Shown here in pieces: positions 1 through 9,948 of a stretch of DNA of 64,000 bases. The notes under the pieces are model-generated. The model saw nothing but the letters and a program-made list of their open reading frames with translations, had not been told where the DNA came from and did no database searches. The stretch is taken from NCBI RefSeq assembly GCF_015767675.1, contig NZ_CP065218.1, positions 62,001 to 126,000 on the forward strand, given 5' to 3'. Every line of letters begins with the position of its first letter. Position 1 is the stretch's first letter. The DNA comes from Vibrio navarrensis. GTDB taxonomy: Bacteria; Pseudomonadota; Gammaproteobacteria; Enterobacterales; Vibrionaceae. Made by a program: the position numbers and the translations under genes.

Positions 1-437
1 CGCTGTGATTGCGCCTCGGTGATGTGAGCACGAGCGCGAATACTTGGCGCAGCGACGCCCGATTTTGCTTTGAGCTGGATGTAAACAAACCAGATCTCAC
101 CCGGTAGCGTCACCAGCTCACCTTGGCGAACGCCCATTTTGGTACGCATCAGCAGATCACAGAACGCAATCATGTAGCGTCCCGGTTCAACGTACTTCTT
201 ACGGTGTTCGCGCAAATCAATGATGTCTTGACCAGAGAGAGACACGATCTCTTTGCCGTTGTGAGTGATGCGTACACGTTCAATATCTGCCGGGTCGGTA
301 ATGTTCGTCACCAACTCAACATTTTGATAAGTCGGGCCGGAGACAAGGCGTAATGTCGCCTGATTTCCCCATGCAACACCTTCAACCGGATCCAATTCTT
401 TTGGACGAGGGTTAAACAAGGTTTCTAGTAATTCCAT
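1..437 (-). CDS. PM2-like major capsid protein, N-terminal part
   Basis: The first 145 residues of a leftward gene are present and the rest lies beyond the window. The ATG at 437 follows a strong ribosome site (AAGGGGGATAC). The fragment is rich in beta-strand sequence and contains a stretch (VRITHNGKEI, then SLSGQDIIDLREHRKKY) that matches, from memory, the pattern near the start of the PM2 P2 capsid protein, where a DNA- and membrane-apposed jelly roll begins. Its position just after a packaging ATPase and a small membrane peptide supports a capsid role. Such proteins form double jelly-roll trimers in membrane-containing icosahedral phages. It could instead be another double jelly-roll lineage such as an autolykivirus. 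The family call is inference from pattern and context. Confidence 0.55.
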   Translation of the reverse strand, partial: MELLETLFNPRPKELDPVEGVAWGNQATLRLVSGPTYQNVELVTNITDPADIERVRITHNGKEIVSLSGQDIIDLREHRKKYVEPGRYMIAFCDLLMRTKMGVRQGELVTLPGEIWFVYIQLKAKSGVAAPSIRARAHITEAQSQ

Positions 438-446
438 GTATCCCCC

Positions 447-575
447 TTAGAACCAGCCTGAATTGCCGTTAAGCTGCTTTTTCAGCGGCTCAAGCGGTGC
501 GACGTTGTTGATAATGGCGATAATCACCAACGCAACAACCACCGTAAACAGCATGGTTTTGTGTTCTTTCTTCAT
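447..575 (-). CDS. 42-residue single-span membrane peptide of the phage late operon
   Basis: This is a small gene between the ATPase and the capsid gene. The peptide begins MKKEHKTMLFTVVVALVIIA: a charged N-terminus, one transmembrane helix at about residues 8-23, then a short polar tail ending in GWF. Its stop lies 9 bases before the capsid ATG, so the two are probably co-transcribed. Virions of PM2-like phages carry several such short inner-membrane proteins. A structural role in the internal membrane is therefore likely but inferred. No strong ribosome site is seen upstream (AAAGGCTAACT is the best match). Confidence 0.55.
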   Translation of the reverse strand: MKKEHKTMLFTVVVALVIIAIINNVAPLEPLKKQLNGNSGWF

Positions 576-657
576 AGTTAGCCTTTCAATGTGTGGAACA
601 AATAATCAAATTGCCCGGTTATCAAAAGCCAAAAAAAGCGGGGAGGGAATGGGATAG

Positions 658-689
658 AACCTATAGGTTAAGCGCGTAACCTATAGGTT
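658..689. repeat. two tandem 12-bp perfect palindromes
   Basis: AACCTATAGGTT occurs at 658-669 and again at 678-689. Each copy is a perfect palindrome, and the repeat distance is exactly 20 bp, about two helical turns. They sit between the ATPase stop (715) and the 42-residue gene (start 575). The spacing suggests a dimeric regulator site upstream of the capsid genes. A processing or attenuation hairpin is the alternative. Confidence 0.6.
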
Positions 690-714
690 GAATTGTGAAC
701 AAAATCACAGTTAA

Positions 715-1485
715 TTAGCGGTAGGAAAGCGCGACTTTCTGGCCGTTCGCACAGTTAAACGCTTGCTTGGAGACATTGCCGATACCATCTTTCACCAGTA
801 GATATTCGGCAATCGGTTTATTGATACGCTCTTTGTTCACTTTGGCTGAAATCAACGTTTCTATCTCTCTGACGTTCAAGCCTTTTTTATCAGCGAGGTA
901 TCGAGCATCGGCGACCGAGTTCACCGCGCCAATCCACCATGTAGACGATTGATCAGTGACGGTTTTCGGCACCTCTTGGCCTTTTTGAAACACGCTATGA
1001 CAGACAAGCCCAAACTGACGGCCACCGCGCCACAGTTCGCCCGCTTTGCCGAGTAATTTACCGGAGCTTTCGACACAGCTTGCGAGTTCTTCAATGACCA
1101 CATGCAACTTAGGCGCATGGCCGTTACCCATCGACCAAACGACCGAGGAAAAAAACTCTAACTCATCGGCACACGCACCAAACTCAGGCACATAAGCAAG
1201 TTTGAACGATTGGCCGCGCTTACGAGCCATCAAAAGCGACTTGAGAAACGCCAGCCGTGAGCTTGTACCGTGGCACTGTTGCCCCTGAAACTTTTGCCCG
1301 GCGTAATTACGGTAGGGGTCAAAGAACACCGCTTGCGACGCTTTCGGGACAAAACTCAAATGTTTAACGGCGGAGGTTTTCCCTCCGCCAGTACCCGCCA
1401 CATAAATAATATGCTCCGCATCGAGCGACGGATTCGAGTTAACCGGATTAGGCAGCTTTAGCGGCGGCTTGGTCTTTTTCACCAT
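715..1485 (-). CDS. FtsK/HerA-type genome-packaging ATPase (PM2 P9-like)
   Basis: This 256-residue P-loop ATPase has Walker A VAGTGGGKTSAVK at about residues 29-41 and a hydrophobic strand followed by acidic residues, LHVVIEELA, at about 125-133 as Walker B. Arginine-rich LWRGGRQFG follows, as in the HerA/FtsK packaging ATPases of membrane-containing tailless phages. The PM2 enzyme P9 is of similar length. Such enzymes drive DNA into the preformed capsid. The ATG at 1485 has an AGGAGG site and overlaps the upstream gene by 38 bp. A Zot-like protein of a filamentous phage was considered, but there is no C-terminal transmembrane toxin domain and the next large gene looks like a capsid protein. 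Confidence 0.7.
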   Translation of the reverse strand: MVKKTKPPLKLPNPVNSNPSLDAEHIIYVAGTGGGKTSAVKHLSFVPKASQAVFFDPYRNYAGQKFQGQQCHGTSSRLAFLKSLLMARKRGQSFKLAYVPEFGACADELEFFSSVVWSMGNGHAPKLHVVIEELASCVESSGKLLGKAGELWRGGRQFGLVCHSVFQKGQEVPKTVTDQSSTWWIGAVNSVADARYLADKKGLNVREIETLISAKVNKERINKPIAEYLLVKDGIGNVSKQAFNCANGQKVALSYR

Positions 1486-1927
1486 TGACGGCCTCCTGTT
1501 GTGCTCTTAACAGTTTCAGTTGTGCCACGTGCCGCTTTGAGGTGTAGATAAGCGCGAGAACGGCAAGCAGTAGCGTTGCTTCCTCGATGTAGTTACCAAA
1601 CATCCCTAATATCGAGCTACCGTGTTTGTTGATCACCGGAATTGCCGCCTTAATTACTTCCGATTTGCCTTTTTCATCAAAGGCGAAATCAATCCCGGAA
1701 ATGATCGAGGTTGCTTGTTCGGTAACGGTAAACACAACACTAAGCAGCCCCTCAAACGCTTCAGGGCTCACGCTTTCGGTTGCTTCAACGGTTGCCGAGG
1801 CTATCGCGTCGGCTTCGCTTTTCTCATGGCTCTCTAACTGAGAAATAACTGTGCTGAAATCGCCCCAATCATCGTTAGCCGCCGCGCCGGGGAAGTTCAT
1901 CTCTTGTTCGCCTTCAAACATTTGCAT
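1448..1927 (-). CDS. phage late protein with C-terminal membrane segment
   Basis: This is a 159-residue protein. A longer in-frame extension exists, but the ATG at 1927 is preferred because GGAGGCGCAACCGA precedes it and the extension would overlap the previous gene heavily. The N-terminal half is acidic and low in complexity (rich in E, A, S and D). A hydrophobic helix (about residues 115-132, EATLLLAVLALIYTS) follows, then a basic, lysine-rich tail. This is the layout of a membrane-associated virion protein. No family is recognised. The next gene, the ATPase, overlaps it, which suggests tight co-expression. Confidence 0.55.
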   Translation of the reverse strand: MQMFEGEQEMNFPGAAANDDWGDFSTVISQLESHEKSEADAIASATVEATESVSPEAFEGLLSVVFTVTEQATSIISGIDFAFDEKGKSEVIKAAIPVINKHGSSILGMFGNYIEEATLLLAVLALIYTSKRHVAQLKLLRAQQEAVNGEKDQAAAKAA

Positions 1928-2465
1928 TCGGTTGCGCCTCCGGTTGTTTTTTTGGAACGAGTTTCCCAAGCATCCAGACCACGAAAACCAACACACCAAG
2001 CACCGTGAGAACACGCTTAACCGTGAACAGTGGCAACGGTTCAACGGGGGCATTAACCGAGCTTTCAACCGTTGCAATCGCGTTGGAAACCGCATCATTG
2101 CTGTTGTCGTCACCTTCATCAGCTAACAGCAGTTCAACCGAATCAGCGTTGATTGCCTCCGGTTGAGCGTTGTTTTCTAGCGGTGTAAGGGCGTCGGTTA
2201 CTTCGGGTGAGACAGCGGTTAAAAGGGCGTTAAGCTGACTTTCATCGCTCACCATGTTTGCAACAATGTAGCTATCAATGGTTTTGCTCATGGCGCTATT
2301 GCCACAGTTCGGACAACGATAGTAATGCAAGCCGAGGTTGCGCCCGTTCTTTGTCGGTTCACCTTCGGCAATCAGTTTGCCTTCGCCTACACGATGAACG
2401 GTTGAAGGGGTAGCGCAAACCGGGCAGCGAACATGGCCTCTGACCGGGTTAGGGTGCTTACTCAT
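1914..2465 (-). CDS. zinc-ribbon protein with C-terminal transmembrane anchor
   Basis: The protein has 183 residues from the ATG at 2465; GTG at 2471 is an alternative. At the N-terminus a CPVC...CPNCG pair, about 30 residues apart, forms a zinc ribbon whose surroundings (VRCPVCATPSTVHR, then YYRCPNC) resemble the Ogr/Delta late-transcription activators of P2-like phages. A long acidic linker follows, then one transmembrane helix near the C-terminus (VLTVLGVLVFVVWMLGKLV) and a short basic tail. A membrane-tethered zinc ribbon is unusual. It may be a virion membrane protein or a regulator. PM2 itself has a zinc-finger late activator (P14), but homology is not claimed. Confidence 0.6.
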   Translation of the reverse strand: MSKHPNPVRGHVRCPVCATPSTVHRVGEGKLIAEGEPTKNGRNLGLHYYRCPNCGNSAMSKTIDSYIVANMVSDESQLNALLTAVSPEVTDALTPLENNAQPEAINADSVELLLADEGDDNSNDAVSNAIATVESSVNAPVEPLPLFTVKRVLTVLGVLVFVVWMLGKLVPKKQPEAQPNANV

Positions 2466-2778
2466 GCTCACCCCCGTTGACGTCTTGCACTTGGCTCAAT
2501 TCAGCAAGGTTTGTTTGGATGTGTTCGCGGTATTTGCTTCGCGCTACGTTGTTGAGCTTGGCGAGTTGTTCCAGTTGAGCGAAGAAATTCGACGGCAAGC
2601 CCAACGCCTCGGGCGAAAGGTTGCCACTGAACAGCGCTTTAGTGGCTTTGGACATCACGTCTTTCATATCCATCGCTTTGAAGCGTTCTATTTCAGCGCT
2701 AACGCTGTCTGTGAGTTGATCAGCTGCATCGAGCGCCGCCAATGCGCGCTGACATTCAGTGATAGAGAGTTTATTCAT
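2458..2778 (-). CDS. unrecognised phage late-operon protein, helical
   Basis: This is a 106-residue, largely alpha-helical, soluble protein with no cysteine and no signal. Its ATG at 2778 is preceded by GGGAGGCAGGAAAC. Its 3' end overlaps the zinc-ribbon gene by 8 bp, so it belongs to the late operon. No motif or family is recognised. Confidence 0.5.
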   Translation of the reverse strand: MNKLSITECQRALAALDAADQLTDSVSAEIERFKAMDMKDVMSKATKALFSGNLSPEALGLPSNFFAQLEQLAKLNNVARSKYREHIQTNLAELSQVQDVNGGEHE

Positions 2779-2802
2779 GTTTCCTGCCTCCCGGCGGTAA
2801 GG

Positions 2803-3033
2803 TTATTGAGTAAGTAGCTCGGTATATACGGCATCGTTTGCCGCTTCGAGTTGGGTTAAATGGGTAAGAATGGAGGTATTCAACGCGGTTTGTTCAGCGC
2901 ATAGCTGACCGCCAATGCGAACAAAGCTGAATATTTCGCTACAGGGTAACAAATTGAAAGGATGGGGCGGAGGCAAAGCCTGACGGTAGAGCGCCAGCTT
3001 TGCCATTTGTTGCGAGTAATTTTGTAAAGCCAT
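2803..3033 (-). CDS. unrecognised small phage protein, first of the late operon
   Basis: This is a 76-residue protein with a proline-rich patch (LPPPHPF) and a helical C-terminal half. AGGG sits 8 bases before the ATG. It is the most upstream gene of the leftward cluster that ends in the packaging ATPase and capsid gene, and the gap of about 100 bp before it could hold the late promoter. Function unknown. Confidence 0.45.
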   Translation of the reverse strand: MALQNYSQQMAKLALYRQALPPPHPFNLLPCSEIFSFVRIGGQLCAEQTALNTSILTHLTQLEAANDAVYTELLTQ

Positions 3034-3136
3034 GCTTATTTCCCTAACTGACGTTTAAGAAACAAGCCGTGAAGTGGTTACGAATCTATCAAGCTGATGT
3101 TAGTTCGCGTAAACATTTGTGTAAATAGGAATTGCT

Positions 3137-4609
3137 TCATTCATCTTTATTTTTATACTGAGATAACATTTTCATAAGCATAGAATGGCTTTCCGTCGAA
3201 ACTACATCTGGCTTCCGATTAAAAACCCCCATAACTAGTTCTATTTTTGTATTCTTTTGGAAATTACGTATTTCATCCTCATTCATTCCATCCTTAGGAA
3301 GTGAACCAGTAATTTGTTCAGCCAAAATGGCAGCCTTTAACATATTCATTTTGTTTTCGCTAACTAAAACAATATTTCGTATAAGATAGAATAAAGCAGC
3401 AGAAGTTGTACCTATTATTAGAGTTGTTATTGTCACTAAAGGAAGCCGACTTAGAATTAGATTCCAAGCACTAGTATTAGGGTGCTTGTCAATAAATTCA
3501 GAGAAGTCCATTGCATTACTATATATTAGAAAGAAAATCACTGAAAGTAAGAAAATCAGTGAGAGCGTTAGTTTAAAATACAATCCTAACTGAGTTCTGC
3601 TTTCTAAAGAAAAACCCTGCATATCCAATGTTGTTATATTGATGTCTGATTTTATTTCAGTTAGTTGTTTCTGCAACGTGGACAATTCTAACATTGCAAT
3701 CTCATTACTTCCTTTTGTTTGCATTAGAATCTTCTCATGTTCTTCACGCTCATGCTTGATGTTTTTTACACGTTCGGTAAGATCATTAGACTGCTTTTCC
3801 AGATTTTTCTTTTCGGCGATTGCCTCCTTTAGATCCTTAGAACTAGCCTCAATGTCATTTCTAATACGAGATAATATTTCACGTTCTGAAGCAATAGATT
3901 GGTCGATTCTTTCCTTTTCCTTGTGCAACGATTCTATTTGTTGTTCAGTCGAAATAGACTCAGCTTGTTTGCTAGACAGGTAAGACTCTAAATTCTTTTT
4001 CTCATTATCTATTAAATTAATGAACTGGTTTGCTGTCCTAGATACATCATTTACATATTGAGTTAGAGACGAAATTTTATTTTTGTTTGTAAAGAAATCT
4101 AATAAGTTGGTAGCCTTGCAGAAGGAGAACTCATAGTCTTTAGGAAGAATAAATCCCCATATGGTTTCATTTACATAATAAGATAGTTTTATATTATTAT
4201 CTGGCGAAGCCCTTGAAATCATAGTTTTTGAGTGGCTCAAAATAGTTTTATTGTTATACTTATATCCTAAAATCTTTAATTTACCAAAAAATAAAGCCTT
4301 CCTCTGGCGAGATGATGTTAGTTGAATTTCTGAGACTAATAGTGGCTTATTAAATAAGCACACGGTATTTCCTTGTAGATGTGATATTTCATAATTTGTG
4401 GCGGAAATCCTATTCCGAACATCTAACGTTAAGCTCTCTTGATTAATTTCGTCTAAGAAAGATATATGTTCTGAATTAATGTCAATACTTTCAAACTGAG
4501 CCTCAATATTTGTTCTTAACTTATCTAAAGCATCACTAAATTCTGCAGAGTTATCCTTGATTAAGGCTGGCATTGGATCTTTATGTTGTTCTTTGGCCCT
4601 AGTGCTCAT
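3137..4609 (-). CDS. coiled-coil protein with two transmembrane helices, AT-rich cargo gene
   Basis: This is a 490-residue protein. Residues 1-200 form a globular, polar region with no recognised motif. About 200-335 is a long heptad-patterned coiled coil (many E, K, L, I). Two transmembrane helices follow at about 343-365 (LGLYFKLTLSLIFLLSVIFF) and 389-414 (LPLVTITTLIIGTTSAALFY), then a cytoplasmic tail of about 75 residues. The gene is clearly more AT-rich than the flanking phage genes, which suggests separate acquisition. It lies between the structural and replication modules, where phages often carry morons. Membrane-anchored coiled-coil sensors occur in several defence systems, but no enzymatic domain is visible here and no function is assigned. 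Confidence 0.6.
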   Translation of the reverse strand: MSTRAKEQHKDPMPALIKDNSAEFSDALDKLRTNIEAQFESIDINSEHISFLDEINQESLTLDVRNRISATNYEISHLQGNTVCLFNKPLLVSEIQLTSSRQRKALFFGKLKILGYKYNNKTILSHSKTMISRASPDNNIKLSYYVNETIWGFILPKDYEFSFCKATNLLDFFTNKNKISSLTQYVNDVSRTANQFINLIDNEKKNLESYLSSKQAESISTEQQIESLHKEKERIDQSIASEREILSRIRNDIEASSKDLKEAIAEKKNLEKQSNDLTERVKNIKHEREEHEKILMQTKGSNEIAMLELSTLQKQLTEIKSDINITTLDMQGFSLESRTQLGLYFKLTLSLIFLLSVIFFLIYSNAMDFSEFIDKHPNTSAWNLILSRLPLVTITTLIIGTTSAALFYLIRNIVLVSENKMNMLKAAILAEQITGSLPKDGMNEDEIRNFQKNTKIELVMGVFNRKPDVVSTESHSMLMKMLSQYKNKDE

Positions 4610-4831
4610 AGATTAAACCCATCTTATTAACAAATCATTATAACATTACCATAAGATCTTATGCCATATCACACTTATGCACTTACTTGTGATATGAAAT
4701 AACATTTTTTGACACTATGCCGTGGCTAGGAATCAGATAGTCAGAGAATTCCACGAATTGAGTCGCAAAGCTAACAGCTAACACAAGCTCAACCTTAGCA
4801 TTTTCCGCCATAATATGCGCCGTCTTTCAGA

Positions 4832-4843
4832 CATTACGTAATG
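4832..4843. promoter_or_regulatory. perfect palindrome in the lipoprotein promoter region
   Basis: CATTACGTAATG is a 12-bp perfect palindrome 20 bases before the lipoprotein ATG. A TAATAT box lies just upstream at 4811-4816. The placement fits an operator or a structured 5' leader. No regulator is identified. Confidence 0.35.
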
Positions 4844-4862
4844 AAAACAAAAGGAATTTCCC

Positions 4863-5558
4863 ATGAAAAAAGCGTTATTGGCGTTGGCAACTTCGGCGGC
4901 TCTTGTGGGCTGTGGCGGCGGTGGTAGTGGCTCCGGTGCATCGAGCCAAGACACCACCTACAAAAAAGACGGTATCTACGTTAACAACACGGATTTAGTT
5001 GTGATGTTGGTTGATAGCGATTTGCCATTAGGTTCGGTGCTCATCGGTGACTATGTTAACAACGAATTCTTAGTGAATGACACGCACAGCATCAGCGGCA
5101 ACACATTGACCACCAAAGGCTTAAGTTTTGTTTCCCCAGCATTGACCACGTATAGCGCAGATGTTGAAGCCAAGATTACATTTAGTGAGGTGGGCGCAAC
5201 GGCCAATGGTGTACTCAACGGAACAAACCTGATTTACTCATTTGACCGCGCCCCGGATAGCGTTGCGCTGACCGATATGCTCGGAACGCACACCAACCCG
5301 GTTGACGGCTCAACATGGACGATAGAGCAAGACGGAACCTTTACTATCAACGGCATTTGCACAATTAGCGGCAAACTTACCCGTGTGGATAGCTATTACA
5401 GCGCTACCAATGTGAGCGCATCAAACTGTACAGATGCAGGCTTTAACGGTAACGGTTATGGTGCAAGGCTTCTGACTGTTACAAAAGGAGGAACGACCTA
5501 CATTCTTGGGATAATGGCAAACAATGACCACTTTATCTGGGGAAGCGCGCCACTTTAA
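4863..5558 (+). CDS. cargo lipoprotein, unknown function
   Basis: This is a 231-residue predicted lipoprotein. MKKALLALATSAALVGCGGG is a signal peptide with lipobox LVGC, followed by a glycine/serine linker. The mature part is beta-rich, with a likely disulphide between the cysteines of GICTISG and ASNCTDAG. It has its own promoter region and a strong terminator, runs opposite to its neighbours, and sits inside the mobile element. Phage-borne lipoproteins often block superinfection at the envelope; that role is inferred only from context. AAAGGAATTTCCC precedes the ATG. Confidence 0.7.
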   Translation: MKKALLALATSAALVGCGGGGSGSGASSQDTTYKKDGIYVNNTDLVVMLVDSDLPLGSVLIGDYVNNEFLVNDTHSISGNTLTTKGLSFVSPALTTYSADVEAKITFSEVGATANGVLNGTNLIYSFDRAPDSVALTDMLGTHTNPVDGSTWTIEQDGTFTINGICTISGKLTRVDSYYSATNVSASNCTDAGFNGNGYGARLLTVTKGGTTYILGIMANNDHFIWGSAPL

Positions 5559-5577
5559 CCCGTAACAGCCGATTAAG

Positions 5578-5600
5578 ACCACCTTCGGGTGGTTTTTTTT
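5578..5600 (+). terminator. intrinsic terminator of the lipoprotein gene
   Basis: A six-pair stem ACCACC/GGTGGT with a TTCG tetraloop is followed by eight T residues, 20 bases after the lipoprotein stop. Confidence 0.85.
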
Positions 5601-5699
5601 GCTACCACAGAAAAACGGCATATGCCGTTTTCAATGACGTTTTCGATGACATTTTTTTAAATACCGCCAACACGCTCAAATTTGCCTCCTTACCTTGCT

Positions 5700-5960
5700 A
5701 GGCCATCGCGAAGCGATATAAACGGCCAATACATCAAAAGCGATCGCTGAAGCCTTTCGACGTCAGTTGCAGTGGTGCAGCCCCTAAGTGCGCATGTCGC
5801 TTGCGACATAGAAGCACGCTTCATTTATCCCTCTTATCGCCGATTTTGAGGTGATAACTTATTATATTTCTACTTACTATTTCTTAATTGATAAGAAAGG
5901 TTATGCGCTATTTTTCCCGTGATATGCGCTAAAACCTCAATCCCTGTATGCACTAAAAAA
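5700..5960. other. putative replication origin with iteron-like repeats
   Basis: The gene-free stretch from 5601 to 6117 is dense in structure. A hairpin ATCGC-gaa-GCGAT lies at 5705-5717 and the palindrome GCGATCGC at 5740-5747. A hairpin ATGTCGC-tt-GCGACAT lies at 5794-5809, flanked by GTGC/GCAC. An AT-rich tract spans about 5850-5900. Three direct repeats follow: TATGCGCTA at 5902 and 5923, and TATGCACTA at 5947, 21 and 24 bp apart. Iterons next to an AT-rich block, downstream of a rep-like gene, match the layout of a theta-type plasmid origin. The origin assignment is inference. Confidence 0.45.
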
Positions 5961-6117
5961 GCAAACATTGGCATTGGTGCGGCTGCCTCTATGGCGAATT
6001 TTGAATAATGGGAAAGTATCAGTGAGAAAGTCGGTCTTAAACGGCGTAAATCAGCGTCAGAAAGGGCTAGAAATTAGGAAAGGGATCGCGTTAGGCTCCG
6101 GAATCAACCGGATAGCG

Positions 6118-6930
6118 TTAAGCTGAGAAGCCGCAAGAGCGTAGCCTTGCATTGATTATGCGGTCTAGTTCGAACTCATTGAGTAGAAGATCTTCACCGC
6201 GCTTTTTCATGCGCTCGAAAATGATTTGAACGGCTCTTGAACGGTCGGTTATTTTAGCAATCGTACGCTTGAGACAACCCGTTGTAATATTCTTGGTGCG
6301 GCGCTCTATTGTCCCTTCCCACAGCGTATTTCTCACCGTGAGCAATCGTTCGTGAAGCTGCCAGCCCGTTTTGAGGAATGCCTTTTGATCTGCATTTTTG
6401 AAGGCCATTTCAAGCTTTAACCCGGCAACAGAGCCAGCTAGATAGCCGAAATCATCAAGAACAACATAAACGTTATTGAAAGGTATCCCGTTTTTATCAA
6501 AAACCGTTCCAGCGCCTTTTGCGGTTTGGCCATGTTTGCCATGAAAAGCTGGCGCAATGACGCGCATTTTGATCATCAGTTCTAGAAGTCGGGAAACGGT
6601 CGATTGATCGACCTCGATTGCCTCTGCAATTTGGCCCTGAGTACCATTGCTTGAGAAAGTTCTGGTTTCCAAGCAAACATTTGCAGCAATCCAGAGACAT
6701 AACTTAGTAAAATTGTCGCGACGGTTTTGACGCTTAAACGTGTCAATACCATGTTCTTTTGAAATGCGGTTGATAATCGCAGGGTGGGAGAGCGCACCAT
6801 GTTTCATGAATACGCGGAAAACGTCGGACTTACCTTTGTGTAGATAAACTTGTCTACCTTCGGCCACTGCTTTTGCAGCAGCCTTGTTATACTTGGTAAC
6901 CAGTTCAAGATAAGACGGTTTGGTGAGCAT
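6118..6930 (-). CDS. plasmid-like winged-helix replication initiator
   Basis: This is a 270-residue basic protein. A helix-turn-helix segment lies at about residues 100-125 (GQIAEAIEVDQSTVSRLLELM) and is followed by a beta-wing-like stretch, as in winged-helix plasmid Rep proteins of the IncFII RepA type. The C-terminal third is helical and rich in arginine and lysine. No HUH or two-tyrosine rolling-circle motifs are present, unlike PM2 P12. The gene follows a small partner gene by 6 bp, and iteron-like repeats lie at its 3' side. A transcriptional regulator is the alternative reading. Confidence 0.5.
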   Translation of the reverse strand: MLTKPSYLELVTKYNKAAAKAVAEGRQVYLHKGKSDVFRVFMKHGALSHPAIINRISKEHGIDTFKRQNRRDNFTKLCLWIAANVCLETRTFSSNGTQGQIAEAIEVDQSTVSRLLELMIKMRVIAPAFHGKHGQTAKGAGTVFDKNGIPFNNVYVVLDDFGYLAGSVAGLKLEMAFKNADQKAFLKTGWQLHERLLTVRNTLWEGTIERRTKNITTGCLKRTIAKITDRSRAVQIIFERMKKRGEDLLLNEFELDRIINARLRSCGFSA

Positions 6931-6936
6931 GGTGTA

Positions 6937-7251
6937 TTATGCCGCCTTCAATTCAACTTCGAGTAAATCAAGGGCGATATTTGCATCAAGAAACCATTTG
7001 TTTAGCTGTTCTATAGTCATCCAGCTATGAGCAAACGATAAATCTGAATTTGGGGTTTGAGGTTCAGCAAAGCAGTCACCATTCACAAACCAACGGATAC
7101 CTAGTTGAACGTGCTCACGGTGGCCTGTTTCTGATTTTCTAAGATTGAATTCAATTGAATGAGGCGTCTTGATGTTTAGCTCAGTGATTCGCTGAATTAG
7201 CCTCGCAGTATGAGCTTGGAAGGTAATCAGTTGTTCGGGTGTGGTATGCAT
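6937..7251 (-). CDS. unrecognised small protein upstream of rep
   Basis: This is a 104-residue soluble protein with mixed helix and strand; no cofactor or DNA-binding motif is evident. AAGGA lies 8 bases before the ATG at 7251. It is the first gene of the leftward early operon and ends 6 bp before the rep-like gene starts. It may be a replication accessory or copy-control protein, by position only. Confidence 0.5.
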   Translation of the reverse strand: MHTTPEQLITFQAHTARLIQRITELNIKTPHSIEFNLRKSETGHREHVQLGIRWFVNGDCFAEPQTPNSDLSFAHSWMTIEQLNKWFLDANIALDLLEVELKAA

Positions 7252-7299
7252 GGTTAATGTCCTTGTTTATCTAATCAAAATCCCCGTCCAAATCTGCCG

Positions 7300-7380
7300 C
7301 ATCTATCAAGTGTTGGGGTGCCCTTAGTACCGTCAACGTGTTCGACTCACTCAGATAGCTAAGGGCAATTTTGATAGATG
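7300..7380. repeat. nested inverted repeat in the early control region
   Basis: The outer arms are CATCTATCAA (7300-7309) and TTGATAGATG (7371-7380). The inner arms are TGCCCTTAG (7319-7327) and CTAAGGGCA (7359-7367). All pairs are perfect, and the loop is 31 nt. It lies between the divergent early operon and regulator gene. It could form a leader RNA hairpin, an antisense RNA or a protein-binding site. Confidence 0.65.
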
Positions 7381-7441
7381 TCGGAACCATCACGGCTTGG
7401 ACGATCACATTTAAGATCATTTCTAAATGGGTGTCGACTGG

Positions 7442-7472
7442 TTGCTATACAGTGTACAGGCTGTTCTATACT
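7442..7472 (+). promoter_or_regulatory. promoter and operator dyad of the phage regulator
   Basis: TTGCTA (7442-7447) and TATACT (7467-7472) are candidate -35 and -10 boxes with 19 bp spacing. A 15-bp dyad, CTATACA-G-TGTACAG at 7445-7459 (one mismatch), lies between them, as expected for an operator used for autoregulation by the downstream HTH protein. Confidence 0.45.
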
Positions 7473-7491
7473 AGGATTTGGAGGGAAATTT

Positions 7492-7764
7492 ATGATAACA
7501 ACGCTTGATTTACTCAACCGATTACGCATTGAAAAACAATTACTTAGTGATAGGCACGTTGCCAGATTCCTAGAGATTAACCATTCTACAGTTAACAAAT
7601 GGAGAAATGGCGGCACAATGAGTGATGAAATGGCTTGCGAAATCGCTGAAATGCTTGATTTAGATGTAGATTTGGTTTTGTTGGCAATCATCGCTGAACG
7701 CTCCAAGAATCAGCGTGCAATTGGCGCATTTGAGAGGCTAACAGAGAACCAAAAAATAGCATGA
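7492..7764 (+). CDS. phage Cro/CI-like HTH regulator (DUF3693-like)
   Basis: This is a 90-residue protein. A helix-turn-helix spans about residues 18-40 (DRHVARFLEINHSTVNKWR). The following MSDEMACEIAEMLDLDVDLVLLAIIAERSKN is the pattern of small DUF3693-type regulators found in Vibrio filamentous phages and related elements. The ATG at 7492 follows GGAGGG. It is divergent from the replication operon, which suggests that it controls the genetic switch. It is the last gene before the dif-like site. Confidence 0.7.
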   Translation: MITTLDLLNRLRIEKQLLSDRHVARFLEINHSTVNKWRNGGTMSDEMACEIAEMLDLDVDLVLLAIIAERSKNQRAIGAFERLTENQKIA

Positions 7765-7781
7765 AATGGCAGGCAAAAAGT

Positions 7782-7827
7782 AAAGGTAACGTATTGATTT
7801 AATTGCATTAGTTACCTTTCTTTTTTG
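7782..7827 (+). terminator. terminator of the phage regulator
   Basis: The arms AAAGGTAAC (7782-7790) and GTTACCTTT (7811-7819) are perfect, with a 20-nt AT-rich loop, followed by CTTTTTT. It ends about 10 bp before the dif-like site. Confidence 0.6.
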
Positions 7828-7835
7828 TCTATCTT

Positions 7836-7863
7836 GGTGCGTATTATATATGTTATGTTAAAT
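7836..7863 (+). other. dif: dif-like XerC/XerD recombination site, element boundary
   Basis: This is a 28-bp site. The XerC half is GGTGCGTATTA (7836-7846), the centre TATATG, and the XerD half TTATGTTAAAT (7853-7863). The XerD half is identical to that of known Vibrio and E. coli dif sites; from memory the whole differs from V. cholerae dif1 at three positions. It separates phage-like genes on the left from housekeeping genes on the right. It is therefore either the attachment junction of the element or the chromosome dif itself. A partner site is expected left of the window. Confidence 0.85.
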
Positions 7864-8150
7864 ATCCCAGTTTACTTCCTAGGTTCATGAGCAACAATAA
7901 ATCAATAAGTTACCTTCTCTCACTTTCACTTCACAAAAATCTGTTTTACGTTTACGCTGAGTTCATGAGCTTATGTTCTAGGTTTATTGTTAGGTTCATA
8001 AGTCTATTTAACAGTATTCGGATTTACCATAAAATCCATAATATAGAACAAAACAATCTGCGTTTGTTTTGTTCTATATTAAGTTCAAGCGTTTCTGCTA
8101 AAGTTCAACGTAGTGGAATGTTTGGATAATATTTTGTTCTGACAAAGAAA
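7864..8150. other. gene-free stretch beside dif
   Basis: This is AT-rich sequence without a convincing gene; the longest rightward open frame has no family features. It contains a recurrent AGGTTCAT(A/G)AG-type motif (7881, 7959 with one change, 7992) and the 18-bp inverted repeat listed separately. It may be terminus-region spacer or remnants of earlier Xer-mediated insertions. Confidence 0.4.
8039..8081. repeat. 18-bp perfect inverted repeat
   Basis: The arms TAATATAGAACAAAACAA (8039-8056) and TTGTTTTGTTCTATATTA (8064-8081) are perfectly complementary around a 7-nt loop. It lies about 180 bp from the dif-like site. It is not followed by a T-run, so it is not a simple terminator. Confidence 0.75.
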
Positions 8151-8171
8151 AAGGAGCGTTCTGCTCCTTGC
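8149..8171 (-). terminator. terminator of the yciH unit
   Basis: Stem AAGGAGC/GCTCCTT (8151-8157, 8163-8169). On the leftward strand it is followed by TTTTTC, 30 bases past the yciH stop. Confidence 0.75.
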
Positions 8172-8200
8172 GTTTGATTGCTTGTCGAGATAGAAACGTG

Positions 8201-8512
8201 CTATCCGCCTGCTAGTTTAACTTTCATGCCTTTTTTCTCTAGGTATGCTTTGATTTTCTCTCGAACATCACCCTGCATTTCAATGTTTCCGTCTTTGACT
8301 GAGCCGCCACAACCGCAGGTTTTCTTCAACTCTGCAGCAAGTAGCTTAAGAGGCGCATCATCAAGATCGAGTCCTGTAACTACACATACACCTTTGCCTT
8401 TCCGGCCTTTGGTTTCACGCTGAATGCGTACAATGCCATCACCTTTGGGGCGTTGTGCTTTAGGCTCATCTTGCTTAATTCGGCCTGTCTCTGTGGAATA
8501 TACAAGAGTCAT
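8201..8512 (-). CDS. yciH: YciH/SUI1-family translation factor
   Basis: This 103-residue protein has the SUI1/eIF1 fold: VRIQRETKGRKGKGVCVVTGLDLDD, then LKKTCGCGGSVKDGNIEMQGD, the family signature with its CGCGG loop. In E. coli, YciH tunes initiation fidelity and represses many mRNAs under stress. It lies 3 bp from the preceding same-strand gene, so the two are likely co-transcribed, and it ends at a clear terminator. Confidence 0.9.
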   Translation of the reverse strand: MTLVYSTETGRIKQDEPKAQRPKGDGIVRIQRETKGRKGKGVCVVTGLDLDDAPLKLLAAELKKTCGCGGSVKDGNIEMQGDVREKIKAYLEKKGMKVKLAGG

Positions 8513-8514
8513 AA

Positions 8515-8889
8515 CTATTTCTTCTGTTGCTGTTCTGCTTTCTGTTTTGCAATCAAATAGGCTTCAATGTGGCGTTGAATAGCCGCTTTTGAACCCTTAA
8601 TGAGTTTACCATTAAAAAAACAATACCAAGCGTTTGGTTCGCCAGTGTCATTTTTAATGGAAAAACCATTAAAATTTTCTGCTTGAGGTGTTCCGGATTC
8701 TAGCTTCCTATCTAAAGATGCAAACTCTCGAGGGTCAATGATGGATGCAGTGTCACACCACCAATCAATGCTCTTCTTGACGGCGATCAAGCTCCCCTGA
8801 AGAACATGATTCTTTATTCTTACCTGCCAGACACTGGTGTCATTACCAGCAGACTTTAAGTTAAAACCACGGTAATTTGATATAGCCAT
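8515..8889 (-). CDS. DUF3319-like protein
   Basis: This is a 124-residue soluble protein with two copies of a similar unit: NYRGFNLKSAGNDTSVWQV near the start and NFNGFSIKNDTGEPNAWYCF in the second half. Each is followed by a helix rich in lysine. The pattern suggests an internal duplication of a small alpha/beta domain. I associate it with DUF3319, an uncharacterised mainly Vibrio family, from memory. It is co-directional with yciH, with a 2-bp gap. Confidence 0.55.
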   Translation of the reverse strand: MAISNYRGFNLKSAGNDTSVWQVRIKNHVLQGSLIAVKKSIDWWCDTASIIDPREFASLDRKLESGTPQAENFNGFSIKNDTGEPNAWYCFFNGKLIKGSKAAIQRHIEAYLIAKQKAEQQQKK

Positions 8890-8991
8890 GTAACTGAATC
8901 ATCTATTAATTAAGTCTTAGATTAATGATAATTGTAATCAGGCGCTTAGCAAGTATAAAATGCTTATATTAACGTGTTATAGTGCACTAAA

Positions 8992-9948
8992 ATGAAAAAA
9001 AACCTTTATGCATATACAGATACCACTGAAGTCAAAGGGCTTATCGAACGATTGAGCCAAAGGCCCGATCTGGAGTTTTTCAATGAGTTTACCCAATTCA
9101 AGTATGCCAAAAATTCGTTACTCGCTATACAAAATGATTGGAGTCGGTACCTAGATTTTTGCAACCAAGCAAAAATAACCATACTACCCTGCTCTATCAT
9201 TGCCATGCGGCGCTTTATTGAAACACAAGCAAGGGAGAGAAAATATTCATCCATTCGGCGCTCATGTGTTCATATCGGCCTAGTTCACCAATTGCTCTCA
9301 TTGGCCAACCCAACCTCACATCGCACAATTCAACTATCACTGAATGAATTGCGCTTAGCGAAAGGTTCAAACCCAAGTCAGGCTAGTGCGTTTACCAAAG
9401 AGCATCTTGCTCAATTGCATTCCACTTTATTGAAAAGCAAGAACAACAAAGACATCCGCGATTGTGCAATCTACTCAATTATGTTTGAGTGCGCAGCAAA
9501 ACGCTCAGAGTTAAAAGCACTACGCATGGAGTCTGTACGAAAAATTGGCGACACAGCTTCTATTACGATTGGTGATACAGCTTACCAGTTGAGCGAGTTA
9601 AGTAGTCTAGCTTGTAAGCGTTGGCTAGAACGCTTACCTGTGGATGCTCATTACCTTTTTGCCGCGATTGACAAACACGGTAACCTGTCATCAAGCCAAC
9701 TTGATGATTCTTCGATATTTAGAATCATGCAAAATGCAGGGAAACGATTGGGATTGGATAAGACTTTTTCAGGCCAGTCTGCGCGTATTGGTGCGGTAGA
9801 GCAACTACGTACTCAAGGAATGAAAATTAGAGAAATACAAGACTTTGGTCGCTGGCTTAGCCCTGCCATGCCTTATCAGTACGCAGGACGTCAAGGCATG
9901 GCACAGCAAGAAATGTTGCAGTTTAAAATAATCAGACCGTGGGATTAA
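8992..9948 (+). CDS. stand-alone tyrosine recombinase, altered active site
   Basis: This is a 318-residue tyrosine recombinase. Residues 30-110 form a SAM-like core-binding domain and 130-315 the catalytic domain. Visible catalytic positions are R171 in KRSEL, R265 in SGQSARIGA, W288 in GRWLS and the nucleophile region AMPYQYA (Y295/Y297). The first histidine of the usual HxxR box (GHSAR) is Q262, which may lower or change activity. It is about 1.1 kb from the dif-like site. Its stop overlaps the convergent ddl stop. It could be a domesticated integrase; no attachment duplication was seen around it. Confidence 0.7.
   Translation: MKKNLYAYTDTTEVKGLIERLSQRPDLEFFNEFTQFKYAKNSLLAIQNDWSRYLDFCNQAKITILPCSIIAMRRFIETQARERKYSSIRRSCVHIGLVHQLLSLANPTSHRTIQLSLNELRLAKGSNPSQASAFTKEHLAQLHSTLLKSKNNKDIRDCAIYSIMFECAAKRSELKALRMESVRKIGDTASITIGDTAYQLSELSSLACKRWLERLPVDAHYLFAAIDKHGNLSSSQLDDSSIFRIMQNAGKRLGLDKTFSGQSARIGAVEQLRTQGMKIREIQDFGRWLSPAMPYQYAGRQGMAQQEMLQFKIIRPWD

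Follow-up and report, generated by a model that had tools for sequence, protein, structure and literature searches.

Probable XerCD-mediated integration of a PM2-like tailless element at dif2 of a Vibrio navarrensis genome

Introduction

Among the prophages of marine Vibrio, the majority are reported to be small phages, either tailless or filamentous. The tailless prophages of V. cyclitrophicus, placed in the order Vinavirales, lie at both dif1 and dif2; there they are reported to carry integrase genes regularly, and the mechanism of integration is called inconclusive (PMC11630473). Here, we ask how a tailless element came to lie against a dif site in a genome of Vibrio navarrensis. The window analysed, a stretch of 64,000 nucleotides of contig NZ_CP065218.1 (C2), opens with phage-like genes that end at a 28-bp Xer site. 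Our analysis indicates that these genes belong to a PM2-like tailless double-stranded DNA phage of ~14.9 kb, which was very probably integrated at dif2 by the host recombinases XerC and XerD in a manner resembling that of VGJphi.

Results

A PM2-like tailless element ends at dif2

The features of the locus are listed in Table 1.

Table 1. Coordinates of the element, of its junctions and of the motifs beside dif2
Feature	Position	Strand	Remarks
Whole tailless element	C2:54953-69835		About 14.9 kb; part left of the window
Right part of the element	window 1-7835		
P2-like capsid gene	window 1-437	-	Extends left beyond the window
Packaging ATPase	window 715-1485	-	phrog_2666, 2.8e-55
Accessory gene, predicted coiled-coil and membrane-type protein	window 3137-4609	-	
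Helix-turn-helix protein	window 6118-6930	-	Weak helix-turn-helix matches below cut-off
Repressor-like helix-turn-helix gene, dif end of the element	window 7492-7764	+	phrog_4441, 3e-24
Terminator-like repeat, AAAGGTAAC ... GTTACCTTT then T run	window 7782-7827	+	By eye
dif2, right junction of the element, perfect 28-bp Xer site	window 7836-7863	+	Read from the sequence
dif2 XerC arm	window 7836-7846	+	
dif2 centre, TATATG	window 7847-7852	+	
dif2 XerD arm	window 7853-7863	+	
197-bp direct repeat, right copy	window 7670-7864	+	93.4% identity to the left copy
197-bp direct repeat, left copy	L002:12758-12953 (C2:54758-54953)		Outside the window; ends in the second Xer site
266 bp identical to the sequence right of dif1	window 7864-8129	+	C1:1661710-1661975, 100% identity
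Inverted dif-like motif, XerD-like arm TTATGGTAAAT	window 8022-8036	-	158 bp beyond dif2
Palindrome replacing the outer XerC arm	window 8039-8081		18 paired bases per arm

The capsid gene product shows 73% identity to a protein of PQ189334 annotated as the PM2-type major capsid P2, and the packaging ATPase, which matched no Pfam family, shows 61.7% identity over 92% to the same record; the five named contigs that carry close relatives of this ATPase all belong to Vibrio. The presence of a P2-type capsid gene beside a P9-type packaging ATPase, as judged by homology to the annotated record, places the element with the PM2-like (Vinavirales) phages. The element also contains small genes and an accessory region, in which the product of the gene at 3137-4609 gave weak matches to the JetC and LmuB defence models and to phrog families. 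The helix-turn-helix protein at 6118-6930 perhaps serves in replication or regulation, and the terminator-like repeat sits between the repressor-like gene and dif2. As a separate observation, an insertion-sequence DDE transposase (L002:14846-15997; PF01609, PF13808) lies inside the element and abuts a short gene. This gene may have been cut by the insertion sequence, so that the present copy of the element may be defective.

The right junction is most likely the dif site of chromosome 2

In the direction 5' to 3', the right junction reads GGTGCGTATTA TATATG TTATGTTAAAT. An earlier note on this DNA had described an exact XerD half and a near-consensus XerC half at the boundary between phage and chromosome, and the letters bear this out: the XerD arm is exact, the XerC arm agrees with TGCGYATTA, phage genes lie to the left, and the chromosomal genes yciH, DUF3319 and a tyrosine recombinase lie to the right. 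The 26-base core of the site has one match in the window with up to 3 mismatches and none in 100 dinucleotide shuffles, and the full 28-mer, again with up to 3 mismatches, has a single match across the 5.1-Mb genome. A looser Xer pattern, with up to one mismatch allowed, finds two sites in the genome, both with zero mismatches, at C1:1661684 (dif1) and C2:69838 (dif2). Each of the two large contigs thus holds one site, and dif2 is the only one on C2. In addition, the GC skew is +0.053 over the 52.8 kb left of the element and -0.033 over the 56.1 kb right of it, a change of sign at dif2 that matches the expectation for a terminus; KOPS counts near dif were too few for use.

The site therefore combines a length of 28 bp and a conserved XerD arm with a position near the GC-skew switch and uniqueness on its replicon. 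Because of the unique match, the single site per large contig and the GC-skew switch, it is most likely the host's own dif2, the dif of chromosome 2. The earlier note was thus right to place a dif-like site at the edge of the element, but the site is not merely a phage copy. The layout of dif2 is the same as that described for dif1 and dif2 of V. cholerae (PMC2731167). The 266 bp to its right look as if the flanks of dif1 and dif2 had recently been homogenised between the chromosomes.

A second Xer site bounds the element on the left

The earlier note had predicted a second dif-like site within about 15 kb to the left, and leftward extension of the sequence revealed one at 14,913 bp from dif2. 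This left site, GGTGCGCATTA TGTGCAGG TTATGTAAAAT, lies outside the window at L002:12923-12952 (C2:54923-54952). It is diverged and 30 bp long, and consists of a complete XerC arm, an 8-bp centre and a XerD-like arm, with one mismatch in the arm search. It was found by a gapped scan, in which the two arms were searched apart; an ungapped 28-mer scan over 124 kb returned no second site, because it was masked by the 8-bp centre. When the 20-kb left flank was mononucleotide-shuffled 20 times and scanned for sites whose centre was 6 or 8 bp long, none came out at 4 or fewer mismatches and one at 5.

A phage that was inserted by other means and merely neighbours dif2 would also fit the fact that the replicon has no other perfect dif and that this one lies at its terminus. 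However, a second Xer site lies at the other end of the element, and the same layout is repeated in 11 other genomes, which makes a chance neighbourhood scarcely credible.

No tyrosine integrase in the searched elements between two Xer sites

A search with PF00589 gave 19 matches genome-wide. The sole match on C2, at 71397-71885, lies right of dif, and the top two on C1 are putative XerD- and XerC-like genes. None lies in the element, so that in its whole length, and not only in the part seen by the earlier note, no tyrosine integrase is found by a search confined to the PF00589 family. As far as tyrosine integrases go, this equally answers the concern that the left end might hold an integrase with its own attachment sites. 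With two bounding Xer sites and no integrase of its own by PF00589, the element is a candidate IMEX (integrative mobile element exploiting Xer).

The tailless ATPase is present in 54 of the 196 genomes of the genus. Among its 77 places, at least 36 are in genomes with a dif place, and at least 15 of these are within 20 kb of dif, figures that represent a biased rate, the dif places of G038, G177, G190, G005, G140 and G119 having come from separate scans. In 12 elements of the genus, that is, in the present genome and the 11 others, the ATPase lies between two Xer sites. Ten of these, all but G006 and G119, were searched, and none had a tyrosine recombinase inside the site pair, whereas all four tailless elements away from dif carried one within 10 kb (Fisher p 0.001, a guide only, since the elements, of which those for comparison come from the same genomes, share history). 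The ATPase places of the G155 circle, G060 and G190, which have no integrase within 10 kb, were left out of the Fisher test. G060 and G190 had initially been counted among the tailless elements between site pairs; they were dropped, as their ATPases are near dif but outside the pair. In G101, where a tailless ATPase lies 6.9 kb from dif, no second Xer site was present in the 20 kb read.

Attachment layouts in the genus

The 12 elements fall into four layouts. In layout (a) (n = 7; G007, G011, G006, G130, G187, G038 and G177), the left site of 28 bp combines an XerC arm with a diverged XerD arm, and in all seven elements its centre has the same sequence as the centre of their own dif. In layout (b) (n = 3; G000, G106 and G005), the left site is 29-30 bp long, with a lengthened centre and a near-intact XerD arm. 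Layout (c), in G155, has an intact centre and XerD arm and a strongly diverged XerC arm, and is the mirror image of (a). Layout (d), in G119, consists of a pair of 28-bp sites; both have full XerD arms, and the agreement between their centres is confined to the XerC side. In all 10 elements of layouts (a) and (b), the ATPase is on the XerC side of the complete dif, so that the whole dif is left beside the host flank on the XerD side.

The dif1 locus of the present genome (L143, C1:1645001-1665000) also holds an element, which looks filamentous by its neighbour genes. It has layout (b): a further Xer site, whose centre is 7 bp long, lies at a distance of 10,687 bp, and a repeat of 122 bp shows 79.5% identity.

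For G155, an integrated and a circular form occur in the same assembly. The 11,916-bp contig C3 (L080) is a circle of the prophage at C1:188176-200125, with 99.97% identity over 11,951 aligned bases. On the chromosome, the left end of the prophage reads AGTACGTATTA TATATA TTATGTTAAAT and the right end AGACGTGACTG TATATA TTATGTTAAAT; in the circle, AGACGTGACTG TATATA TTATGTTAAAT is joined to the left end of the phage. These junction letters place the exchange within 17 bases of the Xer core. The co-occurrence of prophage and circle suggests that the phage is active, and an assembly artefact would be another explanation.

A model of integration and its alternatives

These results are consistent with the following course of events. 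The circular phage genome would carry an Xer attachment site, which host XerC and XerD would pair with dif2 and at whose core they would exchange strands. By analogy with VGJphi, XerC would exchange one pair of strands, and replication or repair would then complete integration. The left junction would thereby receive the complete XerC arm, the 8-bp centre of the phage and the XerD-like arm, and the right junction a perfect 28-bp dif joined to the host flank on the XerD side, so that dif2 would still be usable for dimer resolution. The enzymes, the order of strand exchange, taken from the VGJphi model, and direct integration are what we infer.

Some features speak against this model. Between the phage centre TGTGCAGG and the dif2 centre TATATG, the first base beside the XerC arm alone matches, which would be little for an XerC exchange. 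Such a poor match would be easier to accommodate if the present copy had entered by homologous recombination with an older element resident at dif2, Xer having acted at the ancestral insertion only. A remnant of an older, related tailless element does lie directly left of the present one (L002:12208-12952), with 85.7% (window 2272-2865) and 93.4% identity to parts of it. By sequence comparison, this remnant shows that the dif2 locus held a related element earlier, which forms a decayed tandem with the present one and could have allowed homologous recombination as the last step.

On the other hand, the closest relatives found, G098 and G141, whose FadL-like flanks are 93% and 92% identical, are without the element: their dif2 follows roughly 0.5 kb after the matched flank, and the search for the tailless ATPase in the genomes of the genus returned none in them. 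The older copy therefore need not have been large. Inspected by eye, the sequence next to their dif2 looks like the end of the filamentous-phage gene beside dif1 of the present genome. Moreover, most relatives with a site pair showed no such remnant in the scan of these loci, long flank repeats being seen only in G130 and shorter ones in G011, G006 and G177. We therefore consider this route unlikely.

Insertion at dif by another recombinase was also considered, either an unrecognised phage enzyme or the Cre-like tyrosine recombinase of the host at 8992-9948 of the window (PF00589 3.4e-9; Cre 7.6e-11). This Cre/Xer-like gene lies ~1.1 kb right of dif2; at E 1e-20, all 13 genera and 141 of the 150 Vibrionaceae genomes contain a relative. 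However, both junctions carry Xer arms, a left site of this kind is also present in the filamentous-looking element at dif1, and in the phage-free G098 and G141 the Cre-like gene stays on its own side of dif, as judged by flank alignment. We regard the involvement of another recombinase as highly improbable.

Host XerCD thus remains the preferred agent. The earlier proposal of a corticovirus-like element that uses host XerCD gains from the two Xer sites, the lack of a tyrosine integrase, the recurrence of the layout in relatives and the G155 circle, and the action of XerCD itself would follow from these.

An inverted dif-like motif with a palindrome lies beside dif

On the host side of dif2 lies an inverted dif-like motif, with a XerD arm that has one change, a 6-bp spacer and the inner XerC arm TAAT, followed by a palindrome that replaces the outer XerC arm. 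When Vibrio dif loci are aligned, the consensus on the XerD side is ATTTACCATAAAATA-nn-TAAT followed by the palindrome, and the whole lies 69-164 bp beyond dif on that side. Of 25 distinct loci selected solely on the dif pattern, 19 have the motif. For the full set of loci, many of which were picked by similarity to the dyad, the count is 54 of 64 raw and 53 of 63 on a fair basis; L114 (plus strand), where the dyad itself had been taken for dif, was excluded from the 54 of 64.

The pairing of the palindrome is conserved. In 32 sequences, 88.7% of the stem cells pair, compared with 31-46% after a shift by 1-3 columns, and covariation scores 0.530 as against 0.05-0.14; two of five measures (doubly changed pairs and further pair types) were not above shuffles in these sequences. 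In the column pairs, double-sided changes are far commoner than single-sided ones. The best dyads of 108 windows contain 1504 Watson-Crick pairs, 36 G-T pairs and 194 mismatches, and 33 of the 108 windows were not above 95% of shuffles. The rarity of G-T pairs points to a feature of DNA rather than RNA.

Three other readings of the palindrome were set aside. For an RNA, G-T pairs are too rare (36 against 1504) and double-sided changes too dominant. For a terminator of yciH, a better terminator-like repeat is seen by eye at 8151-8169. For a stem recognised by one sequence-specific protein, the stems of G130 differ between its chromosomes (L127, L132). In Rfam, the region 7400-9000 of the window gave 19 matches up to E 10, all far below the gathering scores, and hence no family for the palindrome.

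In Vibrionaceae, 74 of the 150 genomes, from 5 of the 13 genera, matched a covariance model of the motif; of these 74 genomes, 48 had two matches, 24 had one and 2 had three. The other 76 genomes had no match at E 0.001, a figure to be read with the fact that the model misses some: G131 and G187 carry the motif though unmatched. In an order-wide draw, whose stricter filters lose weak matches, the model matched 14 of 247 genomes and 2 of 87 genera, both of them Vibrionaceae. Among the places listed, 68 were read (the 48 best-scoring and 20 chosen from other genera), and in 65 of them a dif of the same strand lies upstream at a distance below 400 bp.

In several relatives, the Cre-like gene follows ~1 kb beyond the dyad, as here (listings compared, uncounted). 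In G009 and G172 (L212-L215), an island with large recombinase-like genes and its own copy of the dyad lies between dif and the dyad; its 554-aa recombinase-like gene matches NF041502 at 2.7e-25, and the gene order of the island resembles that of the intA-CDS2-intB-CDS4 elements described in the available text of PMC9345347.

From these patterns, it stands at about even chances that Vibrionaceae possess a second cis element paired with dif, a palindrome-armed inverted site that would serve dimer resolution or the handling of the terminus. On this reading, the companion site would often occur once per chromosome, at dif1 and dif2; a role as a XerD-loading or cruciform site is a guess.

Discussion

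The integration of tailless phages at dif is left open in the available text of PMC11630473. The contrast in integrases, the matching centres and the natural pair of prophage and circle, taken as genomic evidence, point to host XerCD. They further suggest that filamentous and tailless phages, although unrelated, share a small set of attachment layouts, to which a mirror-image one is added.

Of all the findings, the dyad most deserves further attention. The available text of PMC2731167 describes dif as being without an apparent specific genetic environment, a view that would change if, in one family, dif did have a conserved partner on both chromosomes. In addition, phages that leave the whole dif on the host side would, if the companion element is real, leave dif and companion together. 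The palindrome motif is undescribed in the literature searched and in the available text of PMC2731167, PMC5357621 and PMC4177673, subscription papers having been mostly outside reach.

Comparison with known systems, made here by the available text of the papers cited, places the element among several Xer-associated phages. Integration by XerCD has been proposed, from dif-like sites, for the NO16-like vibriophages (proposed family Asemoviridae; PMC9966536), which are likewise tailless Vibrio prophages and are compared by description; the present analysis adds both ends, the absence of an integrase, the relatives and the pair of prophage and circle. The tailless prophages of V. cyclitrophicus share the capsid and ATPase families and the dif locations of the present element. 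They are reported with integrases (PMC11630473), whereas the 10 elements searched here have none; PQ189334 and PQ189346 carry integrases, and PQ189349 is without a gene annotated as one. Among the PM2-like prophages described in PMC1950889, three have putative integrases.

For VGJphi, a 7.5-kb filamentous phage without an integrase, integration is reversible and depends on XerC only at a 29-bp site (PMC4246890, PMC5357621). The present element resembles it in a double-stranded attachment site, an intact XerC arm, a lengthened, non-matching centre and the lack of an integrase, and layout (b) as a whole resembles that of VGJphi (PMC4246890). It differs in being a 14.9-kb tailless element, and its 30-bp left site with an 8-bp centre falls outside the VGJphi class, defined by a 29-bp site with an intact XerC arm. 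Conversely, layout (a) is that of TLCphi and the gonococcal genetic island, with a dif-like XerC arm and centre and a diverged XerD arm. TLCphi is a filamentous satellite and the gonococcal island is 57 kb long, and their layout is unlike that of the element in the window (PMC5357621).

CTXphi shares with the present element the use of host XerCD at dif and the lack of an integrase, and integrates as folded single-stranded DNA with two inverted sites ~90 bp apart (PMC4246890, PMC5357621). No such inverted pair was found at the left end of the element by the gapped scan, and the inverted site at 8022 lies on the host side and is present in phage-free genomes. The CTXphi type of integration, to which the earlier note had likened that of the element, is the wrong analogue, its attP being folded single-stranded DNA, and the 30-bp left site is closer to that of VGJphi. 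The element is a fresh example of a known idea, with sharper evidence and some new attachment layouts.
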